A DNA stretch of 64,000 nucleotides from contig CABXZD010000004.1 of the NCBI GenBank assembly GCA_902516465.1, positions 22,489 through 86,488 on the forward strand, in the 5' to 3' direction. Numbering within the stretch: the stretch's first letter is position 1; each line of letters opens with the position of its first letter. The notes under the pieces are model-generated. The model saw nothing but the letters and a program-made list of their open reading frames with translations. It did not search any database and was not told the DNA's origin. Positions 55,855 through 60,706 of the stretch are shown one piece after another. The position numbers and the translations under genes are program-made. The DNA is from an uncultured Pelagibacteraceae bacterium (GTDB lineage Bacteria > Pseudomonadota > Alphaproteobacteria > Pelagibacterales > Pelagibacteraceae).

Positions 55855-56295
55855 TTAATTATCTTCAGTCAACTTTGAGCAGATAGCCATATCATCAGAT
55901 ATATATGAACCTTTAAAATGAGATTTGTTTTTTTCCCAATTCTTTTTGCCATCAGTTATGTAAATATTGAATAGCTCTTTTCGGCTTTGTTCTGCCTCCT
56001 CTTGAGCATCTTCTAATTTTTTTTTTTCATCAATAACCTTTAGTTCAACAGCTTTAAATAACAAATTATTTGAAATTTCTATGAAACTCTTTGAAGTCAC
56101 AGCATCCGATTTTAAAATAACACCTGAGGCATATGCGTAAACTGCACTACATCTTTTTAATAAATAAATTTGGGTTGTACCATCTTCTAAATCATTTTTA
56201 TCCAGGTATTCTTTCAGAGTAAAATTAAAATTCGCATAAACATTTTCAGTCAATAACAAGACACCAGCAAAAAAAATAGATATAATTTTTCTCAT
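55855..56295 (-). CDS. Small secreted protein of unknown function
   Basis: 146 aa, signal peptide MRKIISIFFAGVLLLTENVYA, two Cys residues; 6 bp downstream of the channel gene. Confidence 0.75.
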   Translation of the reverse strand: MRKIISIFFAGVLLLTENVYANFNFTLKEYLDKNDLEDGTTQIYLLKRCSAVYAYASGVILKSDAVTSKSFIEISNNLLFKAVELKVIDEKKKLEDAQEEAEQSRKELFNIYITDGKKNWEKNKSHFKGSYISDDMAICSKLTEDN

Positions 56296-56301
56296 CTTAA
56301 T

Positions 56302-57588
56302 TTAAGCTAAAAATATTACCCAATATCCAGCTGAGGCTGAAACAAATAATATCATTAATAAGATGATCCATGATATTTTTCTAAATTTTAAAAGCCCAGT
56401 TTTTTTATGTCTTGGTACTTTTAAAATATCTGTTTGACTGTACCCCATGAAGTGACCAATATAAATAGACTCTATAAACGTTATGATTAGAACTGAAATC
56501 GCATTTATATAAGCTGTGAAAATAAACCAATCAAATACATTCAGATAGGGCATATCTGGAATTTTTGATGCAGCAGCAACAAGATTGAATGCAACAAGGG
56601 ATAAAACTAGAGTAATACAAACTGAAATTCTATAAAATTCGAAAGGTACAAATATTGTAAAATAGGTAACCATTATTATCATAACTATTGGCATAATAAA
56701 TTTAAAAACAAAACTAATTGAATTTCTCTCTATCAGAAATTCAGTGGTAATAGAATGTTTTGCATAATCTGAATATGCATCAACTAAAGTTTCCATATAT
56801 GGATATGAAATAAATTTATTAATAGTCCAACCAGGAGATGATATATTAGTAAAATTTACTTCTCTCATTTCATCATTTAAAATTTTAAATTTATCTGATG
56901 CTCTAAAAGAAACTTTCTCAAAGATTTTTGAATAAATTACAAATTTAAAAGATTGTTCATCAAAAGGATACCTCTTGTAATCAAAGTCTGATATATTGTA
57001 TGAAGCAACTTCATCATAATAAATATATTCAATTGTTCCATCATAAAAAATTAATATTTTAGGTTTTACATTGGACTCTACCTTTTTGGAGTCTTGAAAA
57101 GTCATTTGAAAGTCAAAAAATTTTCCTTCTGAGATTGATTTATTTAAGTCGTACTCACATACTACGATTTTCTGTGTTTTAGCTTCAATTACTTTTTTAT
57201 TGATTGAGGACATTTCATCTGAGAAATCATCTGATAAACTATTAAAAATTATAAGATTTAATTTGGGCTCAGTATAAAAGAAAGATCTTTGATCTAGGAA
57301 AAGTGATAGAGTAGAATTTTGCTCATCTAAATCAATTCTTTTTAAATTAAAGTAATTTCTTAAAGTTATATCATCTTTAAGTTTTTTTACACTACCAAAA
57401 GTACTTTTATCATATATTTTTTCACAAATTCTTTTTGGAAATAATTCACTAAACTCTAATCTTTTTTCTGCTTCAAGAGAAGTTACCTCAATTGAAATTG
57501 CCCTAGAAAAAAAAATTGTAAGAAATATCAATACAAATCCTAAAAATCTAACCGTATTAATTTTTTTATAAAACTTAATTTGGTCCAT
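56302..57588 (-). CDS. Pentameric ligand-gated ion channel homologue (prokaryotic Cys-loop family)
   Basis: Signal peptide; Pro-loop FDYKRYPFDEQSFKF; M1 FKFIMPIVMIIMVTYFTIFV; M2 ISVCITLVLSLVAFN then PDMPYLNVFDWFIFTAYI. Confidence 0.85.
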   Translation of the reverse strand: MDQIKFYKKINTVRFLGFVLIFLTIFFSRAISIEVTSLEAEKRLEFSELFPKRICEKIYDKSTFGSVKKLKDDITLRNYFNLKRIDLDEQNSTLSLFLDQRSFFYTEPKLNLIIFNSLSDDFSDEMSSINKKVIEAKTQKIVVCEYDLNKSISEGKFFDFQMTFQDSKKVESNVKPKILIFYDGTIEYIYYDEVASYNISDFDYKRYPFDEQSFKFVIYSKIFEKVSFRASDKFKILNDEMREVNFTNISSPGWTINKFISYPYMETLVDAYSDYAKHSITTEFLIERNSISFVFKFIMPIVMIIMVTYFTIFVPFEFYRISVCITLVLSLVAFNLVAAASKIPDMPYLNVFDWFIFTAYINAISVLIITFIESIYIGHFMGYSQTDILKVPRHKKTGLLKFRKISWIILLMILFVSASAGYWVIFLA

Positions 57589-58942
57589 ATGCTACTTTTG
57601 GTAACCATGTAACAATTTCAGGGAAATTAAATACAATAGCAACTGCTATTACTTGCAGGATAACAAATGGAATTATTCCTTTATATATATTTGTTATAGA
57701 AATTCCTTGAGGAGCCACACCTTTCATATAAAAAAGAGCAAACCCAACTGGGGGGGTTATGAATGAAGTTTGTAAAACCACAGCAAACATTACAATAAAC
57801 CAAACCATATCAACTCCCAGATCCATCATTACTGGTGCCAAGAAGGGTAAAATAATTAATGTAATTTCAATCCAATCTAAAAAGAAACCTAATAAAAATG
57901 CCACAAACAATACAACTATTACAACTCCACTTGTTCCAAAAGGCAATGCCTTAAGCGCTCCTTCTATTAATTCATCGCCTCCCAAACCTCTTAAAATTAA
58001 TGCAAACATTGTTGCGCCAACAAAAAGTGCAAAAATATAAGCTGTAGTATGGGTTGTTTTTCTAATCACAATTTTTAAGTCTGAAAATGATAATCTTCCT
58101 CTAACTATAGCCAACAAAGATGCACCTAAAGCCCCAACTCCAGATGCTTCTGTTGGAGTAGCAATTCCCATGAATATACTTCCTAAAACAGCAAAAATTA
58201 ATAAAGCTGGTGGTATGATAGATTTTAAAACTCTTAAAACTATTTTTAAATCAACTGGTTCAGCATCTTTTGGAAGTGGTGCAGCTTTTGGATTCATGTA
58301 AGCATAAACAACGATAAAAATTGTGTATAATAACCCAAGTAATAGGCCTGGAAAAACAGCCCCCATAAATAAATCTCCAACTGAAATTCTTACTTGGTCC
58401 CCCATAATTACGAGCATAATACTTGGAGGTATAAGAATTCCTAAAGTCCCAGTCGCACAAACAACTCCACAAGCTAAATTTGGATTGTACTTATTCTTTA
58501 ACATTAATGGCACACCTAAAATTGTTAGAAGCACTACTGCTGCACCAATAATTCCTGTTGAAGCAGCAAGCAAAACTCCAATAAATACAATTGAGATTGC
58601 AAGTCCACCTCTTGTTTTACCAAACAATTTAGACAGATCAGTCATTAGATCCTCTGCTATACCAGATTTGTCCATCATTATTCCCATAAAAATAAACATT
58701 GGTAGTGCAACTAAAACCCAATTGGCCATTACACCATAAAGCCTGTAGACAACCATCGAGGCAAATCCGAAATCAACACCATAAAATGTGTCAAATAAAT
58801 TATCGGAAAGCATTGAGATAAATATAAACAGAACTCCTAAACCACCCATTGTCCAAGCTACAGGAAATCCATAAAATATTAATGTTATAAAACTAAAAAA
58901 GAGAGCGATTGCTAAAAAATATTCTGTAACTAGTGAAATCAT
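57575..58942 (-). CDS. dctM: TRAP transporter large permease DctM
   Basis: GFPVAWTMGGLGVLF, IPPSIMLVIMGDQ, FITPPVGFALFY. Confidence 0.96.
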   Translation of the reverse strand: MISLVTEYFLAIALFFSFITLIFYGFPVAWTMGGLGVLFIFISMLSDNLFDTFYGVDFGFASMVVYRLYGVMANWVLVALPMFIFMGIMMDKSGIAEDLMTDLSKLFGKTRGGLAISIVFIGVLLAASTGIIGAAVVLLTILGVPLMLKNKYNPNLACGVVCATGTLGILIPPSIMLVIMGDQVRISVGDLFMGAVFPGLLLGLLYTIFIVVYAYMNPKAAPLPKDAEPVDLKIVLRVLKSIIPPALLIFAVLGSIFMGIATPTEASGVGALGASLLAIVRGRLSFSDLKIVIRKTTHTTAYIFALFVGATMFALILRGLGGDELIEGALKALPFGTSGVVIVVLFVAFLLGFFLDWIEITLIILPFLAPVMMDLGVDMVWFIVMFAVVLQTSFITPPVGFALFYMKGVAPQGISITNIYKGIIPFVILQVIAVAIVFNFPEIVTWLPKVAYGPN

Positions 58943-59508
58943 TTTTTATCCTCTAATCCAAATCGCAGTGTTTCTATTATTCTTACAATCCTTGAGAAAC
59001 CAGAAATTAAGAGTAAGAAAAAACTGATTACTAAAAAACCTTTTACAAACCATCTAGCTGGTAATCCATTAGCTGATGTTGATCTTTCACTTGAAGCCCA
59101 CGATAATTCAAAGAAAGGGACTGCATAATAAAGAACGAGGATTACGAATGGTAAAAATAAAATCAAAATACCAAATAATTCAAACCATAGTTTTTTTCTA
59201 TAACTTAGTCTCTCACTTAAAACATCAACCCTTACATGAGAGTCCACTATATATGTTGAAGATAAACCAATTAACCAGCCTATACAATAAAGGTGCCATT
59301 GCAGTTCCTCCAGCTCAATCATTCCATTTCTAAAAACATATCTTAAGACTACATTTAGAATGATAACTGCAATTAATATTACCCAGAACCAATTAAAAAT
59401 TTCTCCTATCTGTAAAACAAAATTATCAATTTTCTTTGTGATAGGTGTGTGTCTAAGCTGTAGTTTTTTATCAAGAGAAGTTTTTACAGATGTAAATTCT
59501 TTAGACAT
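58939..59508 (-). CDS. dctQ: TRAP transporter small permease DctQ
   Basis: Four TM segments, ELEELQWHLYCIGWLIGLSSTYIVDSHVRVDVL. Confidence 0.93.
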   Translation of the reverse strand: MSKEFTSVKTSLDKKLQLRHTPITKKIDNFVLQIGEIFNWFWVILIAVIILNVVLRYVFRNGMIELEELQWHLYCIGWLIGLSSTYIVDSHVRVDVLSERLSYRKKLWFELFGILILFLPFVILVLYYAVPFFELSWASSERSTSANGLPARWFVKGFLVISFFLLLISGFSRIVRIIETLRFGLEDKK

Positions 59509-59520
59509 AATTTTTTCCTT

Positions 59521-59554
59521 AAAAACAAAAGCAGCCGGTGAAACCGGCCGCTTT
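59521..59554 (-). terminator. Hairpin plus U-tract between dctP and dctQ (attenuator / mRNA-end signal)
   Basis: Minus-strand AAAGCGGCCGGT-TTC-ACCGGCTGCTTT followed by TGTTTTT; one G·U pair in a 12 bp stem. Confidence 0.8.
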
Positions 59555-59587: not shown

Positions 59588-60652
59588 CTAAAAGTTTCGA
59601 GGTAAATATCCCCATTTTTGCCAAACATCATACTCCTTCATGAATGCTTGTTGAGAAGCCCATACTTTGGCAAAGTCAGCATCTTTAGCAGATTCTTCTT
59701 TCATTACTCTAGCACTAACTTTTTGTAGCTCTCTCAATACACTATCAGGCAATCTAGCTGCTGTTACACCTTTAGAAGGAAAAGTTCCGATTTGTTTTCC
59801 TTGTAAAAATTCACCAGTAGTAATTGCTCTCATAGCCGCTGCTGTACAAGCCATTTCGAATAATGCTTGGTCAGCTGCACCCATTTTTTTCCATAAATCT
59901 AGATTGATCATGAAATGAGTTGAGGTTGATACTTGGTGCCAACCTGGGAACAGGTTGAACTTAGTGATTTTATGAAAACCTAAAACCTCATCAATAGCAG
60001 GCATTGAATATTCAGTAGCATCTAGAGTTCCTTTTTCTAGCGCTGCAAAAATTTCTCCGCCAGCCATTAAAGTAGCTGAAGCTCCTATTTCATTTAAAAC
60101 CATTCCCCCTAAACCTGAGAAACGAATTTTTAAACCTTTAAGATCTGAAAGGCTAGTTATAGGGTTTCTATACCAACCAGCTGTTTCAGGCCCAATTGTA
60201 CTACATAACAAAACTTGAATATTTTGTTTGTTGTATATTTCATTAGCTAATTTAGCGCCTTCTCCTTCAAACCACCAAGCTGCATATTCCCATGGTTCCA
60301 TTCCAAATGGAACAGCTGCAAATAATACTGCTGCTGGTATTCTTCCTTGGTCATATGCCATATAGTTATAAGCTGCTGGCAAGTCACCTTTACTTATTGA
60401 AGGTGAGATTTCTAGTGGTGGAAGAATTTTTCCAGGCTCGTAAACCTTTAATTTAATTCTACCATCAGTCGCTCTATCTAATGTATCTGATAAACGTGCA
60501 ACAGGATCTCCTAATGCAGGCCAACCAGTATTAAAAGTAGATTGTACTTTCCATCTAATTTTTTCCGCTGCAGTAACTTGCTGTAATGAAAAAGTTACCA
60601 TTAAAGCAAACACCGCAAAGAAACTAACAGATGTTTTTATCAGTTTTTTCAT
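59588..60652 (-). CDS. dctP: TRAP transporter substrate-binding protein (TakP/DctP-like)
   Basis: Signal peptide MKKLIKTSVSFFAVFALMVTFSLQQVTAAE; start 60652 with strong SD GAGAGGGGAAA; GPETAGWYR..DLKGLKIRFSGLGG. Confidence 0.93.
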   Translation of the reverse strand: MKKLIKTSVSFFAVFALMVTFSLQQVTAAEKIRWKVQSTFNTGWPALGDPVARLSDTLDRATDGRIKLKVYEPGKILPPLEISPSISKGDLPAAYNYMAYDQGRIPAAVLFAAVPFGMEPWEYAAWWFEGEGAKLANEIYNKQNIQVLLCSTIGPETAGWYRNPITSLSDLKGLKIRFSGLGGMVLNEIGASATLMAGGEIFAALEKGTLDATEYSMPAIDEVLGFHKITKFNLFPGWHQVSTSTHFMINLDLWKKMGAADQALFEMACTAAAMRAITTGEFLQGKQIGTFPSKGVTAARLPDSVLRELQKVSARVMKEESAKDADFAKVWASQQAFMKEYDVWQKWGYLPRNF

Positions 60653-60706
60653 TTTCCCCTCTCTATTTTGAGTTGTTTTAAATTTAAAGAACATCCCCAA
60701 CTCATT

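Follow-up and report, generated by a model that had tools for sequence, protein, structure and literature searches.

Among the bacterial members of the pentameric ligand-gated ion channels (pLGICs), ELIC of Dickeya/Erwinia is gated by primary amines and GLIC of Gloeobacter by protons. How receptors of the nicotinic and GABA types gain new ligands is an open question. Recombination between the extracellular domains (ECDs) and transmembrane domains (TMDs) of paralogues has been suggested as a possible path to new receptors, one that could be detected as a conflict between the phylogenies of the two domains, and Pelagibacter was already named among the pLGIC carriers in the same study (Jaiteh et al. 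2016, PMC4795631). With regard to gene context, pLGICs beside stand-alone periplasmic binding proteins have been reported as conserved neighbourhoods (Tasneem et al., PMC549065). Our literature searches found nothing relevant for SAR11 in combination with ligand-gated ion channels and, among sources largely outside the subscription journals, no later report of a pLGIC domain-tree conflict.

The pLGIC gene considered here adjoins the genes of a TRAP transporter in a window of 64,000 nucleotides from an uncultured SAR11 bacterium (Pelagibacteraceae) whose genome assembly, G000, comprises 1.04 Mb in 20 contigs and is 87% complete. The window genes, their parts and the insert-edge repeats described below all lie on the minus strand.

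Identity and predicted architecture of the window channel

The gene (56302..57588) is an intact ORF of 428 codons, and its product is identified by sequence similarity as a pLGIC subunit of the set of relatives that we refer to as "group A". Its best match in phmmer searches is ELIC (E 6e-12), followed by DeCLIC and GLIC, and the family profile matches ELIC with an E value of 8e-15, in agreement with the preliminary description of this DNA. The two Pfam channel models also match, with scores that stay below their cut-offs (17.5 bits against 26 for the ligand-binding domain and 16.8 bits against 28.1 for the membrane domain), so that routine annotation could overlook the gene. The homology to solved pLGICs spans residues 176-377, and the first half of the ECD is without a match.

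A predicted signal peptide (residues 1-31, 57496..57588), which includes an 11-residue extension encoded at and past the end of dctM, precedes the periplasmic ECD (residues 32-289, 56722..57495; ELIC homology from residue 176). The Pro-loop YPFDEQ (residues 207-212, 56953..56970) aligns without gaps to FPFDRQ of ELIC. Placement of M1 (residues 291-313, 56650..56718), the M2 pore helix (residues 319-341, 56566..56634) and M3 (residues 348-374, 56467..56547) follows the ELIC alignment; they are succeeded by a putative M4 (residues 403-427, 56308..56382), which was assigned from the sequence alone as a hydrophobic stretch at the M4 position. The earlier readings of the Pro-loop and of Ser2', Thr6' and Leu9' in M2 proved correct by alignment; among the group A relatives Thr6' is invariant, position 2' is Ser, Thr or Glu and position 9' is Leu or Val. 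The animal-type Cys-loop pair (beta6-beta7) is absent, there being no Cys near YPFDEQ, and the invariant cysteines of the group A ECD are Cys55 and Cys144. Positions -1' and -2' of M2 carry no acidic residue in the window channel; in one relative, L008, position -1' is occupied by Asp. Phe133, the aromatic residue of loop B in ELIC, corresponds to Lys221 here and to K, Q, G, R or N-like residues in the relatives, and gating by amines is therefore not predicted for the window channel. An AlphaFold2 model built on an alignment of eight close homologues reached a pLDDT of 38 and a pTM of 0.22, too low for a usable model. The product is probably a homopentamer of the inner membrane, of the Pro-loop type and with an M2-lined pore.

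The TRAP locus with and without a channel

Upstream of the channel lie dctP (59588..60700, PF03480; the longest ORF, with the true start probably downstream), dctQ (58939..59508, PF04290) and dctM, which encodes the TRAP large membrane subunit (57575..58942, PF06808). A GC-rich stem-loop (GCCGGTGAAACCGGC, 59534-59548) between dctP and dctQ could act as an attenuator within this operon. Downstream of the channel is SP146 (55855..56295), the gene for a secreted protein of unknown family, which directly follows dctM where the channel is missing. The latter arrangement, dctP-dctQ-dctM-SP146-mdh, is found in four other genomes of the genus, G258, G265, G272 and G281, whose DctM proteins are 90-98% identical and in which SP146 begins ~20 bp after dctM.

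Some kind of pLGIC is present in 38 of 399 genomes of the genus, and 13 of these 38 carry group A channels. A channel beside dctM was detected among the 399 only in G000 and G337 (apparently the genome of L008), and one further record, L009, has the same arrangement. The preliminary description had named an adjacency restricted to its own genome as grounds for refutation; the adjacency was found in only three genomes, all from a single lineage and at a single site, and the conserved TRAP adjacency that would mark a TRAP-linked pLGIC system was not found. Relatives 64-89% identical to the window channel occupy other loci without TRAP genes, and group A as a whole is found at about eight such places. 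With neighbouring genes read from sequence unless matched by Pfam, the other group A channels follow an ATP-grasp gene (L002, L046) or a glutaredoxin gene (L006), adjoin tRNA-Leu and NAD kinase (L003, L004, L005), stand between autotransporter-like genes (L007) or occur at four more sites (L049; L028; L029/L050; L030). The loci have no neighbour in common. Such scattered sites fit the finding that SAR11 rearrangements concentrate at operon boundaries (PMC2217521). At L004:7885-9913, the channel is immediately upstream of tRNA-Leu(taa) and is flanked on both sides by partial repeats of the tRNA-Leu 5'-region, which makes the place a possible hot spot of integration; in L003 and L005 it is likewise just upstream of tRNA-Leu(taa).

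Insertion, replacement and a probable new start codon

The edges of the insert are marked by copies of AAATTAAG at 57574..57581 (5' edge) and 56296..56303 (3' edge), flanking repeats that may be due to chance since the DNA is so AT-rich. In the comparison with L008, the flanking DNA is 87-100% identical per 100 bp and the channel DNA mostly 62-88%, with a return to 96% at the 3' end. In a breakpoint scan, the window gene resembles L004 as far as residue 400 (256 sites versus 23) and L008 thereafter (1 versus 17 sites; p 0.0005), which assigns residues 401-428 and the stop codon (56302..56388) to an L008-type tail; third positions alone gave a borderline result for this breakpoint (p 0.05), with the optimum elsewhere. 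The simplest account is a single insertion that the window lineage has in common with L008, after which an allele from a different locus replaced the greater part of the gene. A search for a phage origin found no match in 50,697 phage records, viral contigs or PHROG families, and the window channel matched no defence model.

The channel ORF and dctM overlap by 14 bp (57575..57588), and the coordinates confirm that the channel ATG lies within dctM, as had been noted. The same start codon occurs only in L009, where, as in the window, TAT replaces TAC near the end of dctM and thereby creates the ATG; L008, at the same locus, has its own channel ATG 5 bp past the dctM stop and no overlap. The L004-type start codon (ATGACTAGA) is ACG in the window and ATA in L009, which leaves the overlapping ATG as the sole codon of a usual start type upstream of the signal-peptide core, and the only ordinary start that gives a whole signal peptide. 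Translation in the window genome and L009 thus most likely starts inside dctM. Co-translation with dctM, which the preliminary description thought almost certain, is likely in these two genomes as a derived state; L008 lacks the overlap. Its likely retention in at least two genomes counts against the account favoured below. An operon overlap that looks perfect can evidently be of recent origin.

These observations bear on the proposal that the channel and transporter form a dedicated system, with the channel either sensing what the transporter takes up or supplying an ion flux that aids Na+-coupled uptake. The 14-bp overlap, the common strand, the lack of any terminator-like site in the dctM-channel interval and the earlier reports of pLGICs adjoining periplasmic binding proteins (PMC549065) speak for this proposal, to which we assign very little likelihood: four orthologous TRAP loci are free of channels, close relatives of the channel reside at unrelated loci without TRAP neighbours and the overlap is missing from L008. 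Moreover, an open channel would dissipate the Na+ gradient and give it no support. A dedicated TRAP-channel system, and with it the functional coupling first suggested for this locus, is not supported; the window channel is a recent, mobile passenger of the TRAP operon that is probably co-transcribed with it.

Exchange of sensing and pore domains

The channel of L049 is 95% identical to the window channel in the TMD and 55% in the ECD, and compared with L030 it is 62% identical in the ECD and 34% in the TMD. The contrast is reversed when L028, L029, L030 and L050 are compared with the window channel (ECDs 53-60%, TMDs 31-34% identical; for L028, 60% and 34%). Breakpoints for L049 and L008, based on all sites, fall at residues 265-271, just ahead of M1 (p<=0.0005).

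Differences of this kind might arise without recombination if the pore were strongly constrained and the ECD evolved fast. Conservation in pLGICs is generally higher in the TMD, and a second SAR11 set, "group B" (~30% identical to the window channel in the matched part), shows a difference in the same direction, with 60% identity among its TMDs and 22% among its ECDs. We nevertheless consider constraint a very unlikely explanation. At the same junction dS falls from 1.31 to 0.57 (L049) and from 1.86 to 0.56 (L008), so that the difference is not explained by selection on the pore protein alone, and the reversed contrast of L028, L029, L030 and L050 runs contrary to it. The domain trees also conflict: the ECD data reject a grouping of L049 with the window type (AU p 3e-10), and the TMD data reject one of L049 with L030 (AU p 6e-4). 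The ECDs and TMDs of group A have different histories, and the domain-tree conflict foreseen in 2016 is documented here. Of two other candidate exchanges, a group B origin for one or the other group A pore type was rejected (the group A TMDs all lie on one side of a branch), and L028 as a window/L050 recombinant found no support (p 0.19-0.46).

Many of the SAR11 records were assembled from single cells or metagenomes, which raises the concern that the mosaics are chimeras of assembly or whole-genome amplification. That they are such artefacts is hardly credible, given that two genomes (those of L048 and L049) have the L049 type, that the 5' junction of the window recurs in L009 and that, with the divergences between the parental types, no identical donor is available. 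The low dN/dS values (0.07-0.29), together with the presence of the L049-type chimera in two genomes, make the genes look functional. The family consists of mobile channels that exchange domains, and the exchange of ECDs over a common pore suggests that the signal changes and not the output.

Group B channels and protease cassettes

Group B channels fall into two types by context. At ten SAR11 loci of one type (L037:5703-10384, L038, L039, L040, L105:4031-8756, L106, L107, L108, L109 and L111:3566-8350), genes for a secreted caspase-like protein, a secreted trypsin-like protein and a divergently transcribed phage-CII-related regulator precede a group B channel, in that order; in an eleventh (L110) the caspase is missing where the contig ends. 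The four caspase-like proteins that were scanned match Peptidase_C14 (E 5e-15 to 9e-23), and the caspase GHG and DSC motifs are conserved, as are the His/Asp/Ser motifs of the trypsin-like proteins. A close match to this caspase is present in ten of the 399 genomes, and nine of these ten also have the channel type of the caspase cassettes.

In the other type, a PrsW-family intramembrane protease gene abuts or overlaps the group B channel gene in 13 loci and is separated from it by one gene in three (PrsW-pLGIC loci: L034:8310-10979, L036:4323-7951, L092-L104), usually behind a CII-like regulator. PrsW is rare in SAR11 (3 of 41 relatives above the cut-off), and a literature search for PrsW together with ligand-gated ion channels found nothing relevant. 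In the channel of L036 a PDZ model scores 23.1 bits (cut-off 23.2), and a trypsin-like protease gene follows this channel. Three of the PrsW-pLGIC clusters (L033:6223-11898, L101:5819-11457, L102:4406-10100) add DUF805, a flavin amine oxidase, a further pLGIC that is closer to ELIC (PF02931, 35.9 bits) and a regulator-like gene for 168 aa; the amine oxidase is a suggestive neighbour, ELIC itself being gated by amines. A pLGIC preceded at a distance of 1 bp by a CII-like regulator (L091:375-2226) is also present in a different alphaproteobacterial family (G831), and the pairing of regulator and pLGIC is thus wider than SAR11.

The group B cassettes may resemble protease-activated, pore-forming immunity, and they provide a strong contextual lead on a possible purpose of bacterial pLGICs. 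They suggest a reading in which the mobile, ECD- and pore-swapping SAR11 channels would act in protease-linked envelope sensing or cell death, with the window gene as an orphan without proteases. We consider this reading rather unlikely. The window genome, 87% complete, yielded no PrsW, no caspase of the cassette family and no group B channel, and the cassettes accordingly do not directly explain the window gene.

Origin and meaning of the window channel

With considerable confidence, we regard the window gene as an accessory, mobile SAR11 pLGIC that was inserted by dctM, has recombined and belongs to a family exchanging ECDs and TMDs, the TRAP adjacency representing a site and an opportunity for expression and not a shared substrate. 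In the proposed history, a clean insertion placed an ancestral copy between dctM and SP146 in a single lineage, where the gene would now use the TRAP operon transcript. Homologous recombination with relatives from other loci replaced most of the gene, leaving an L004-type body and an L008-type tail; the start codons of both kinds of relatives were lost, and the ATG inside dctM most likely substitutes for them. A periplasmic solute would bind the periplasm-facing sensing domain and open a passive ion pore, and the exchange of ECD and TMD units near residues 265-272, seen family-wide, would let an existing pore acquire a different ligand sensor. SAR11, which is among the most abundant of ocean bacteria, thereby offers natural chimeras with a mapped junction.

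Comparison with known channels

The window channel shares with ELIC the Pro-loop, M1-M3 and the absence of the Cys-loop, and differs from it in an ECD that is ~65 residues longer, in the N-terminal half, in Lys221 at the position of the loop B aromatic and in an M2 -1' position without Glu. With GLIC it shares the YPFD Pro-loop and the M2 register at AFN; Ser at 2' and Leu at 9' replace the Thr and Ile of GLIC, and -2' lacks Glu. Like the pLGICs of the neighbourhoods described by Tasneem et al., it adjoins a periplasmic-binding-protein system, but its TRAP neighbourhood is not conserved. The closest parallel to the group A mosaics is provided by the laboratory pLGIC chimeras discussed by Jaiteh et al., in which the ECD of one channel is likewise placed on the TMD of another; the SAR11 chimeras differ in being natural, with a junction at about residues 265-272, and the exchange of sensing and pore halves that was made in the laboratory and proposed in 2016 is now seen to have a natural counterpart.
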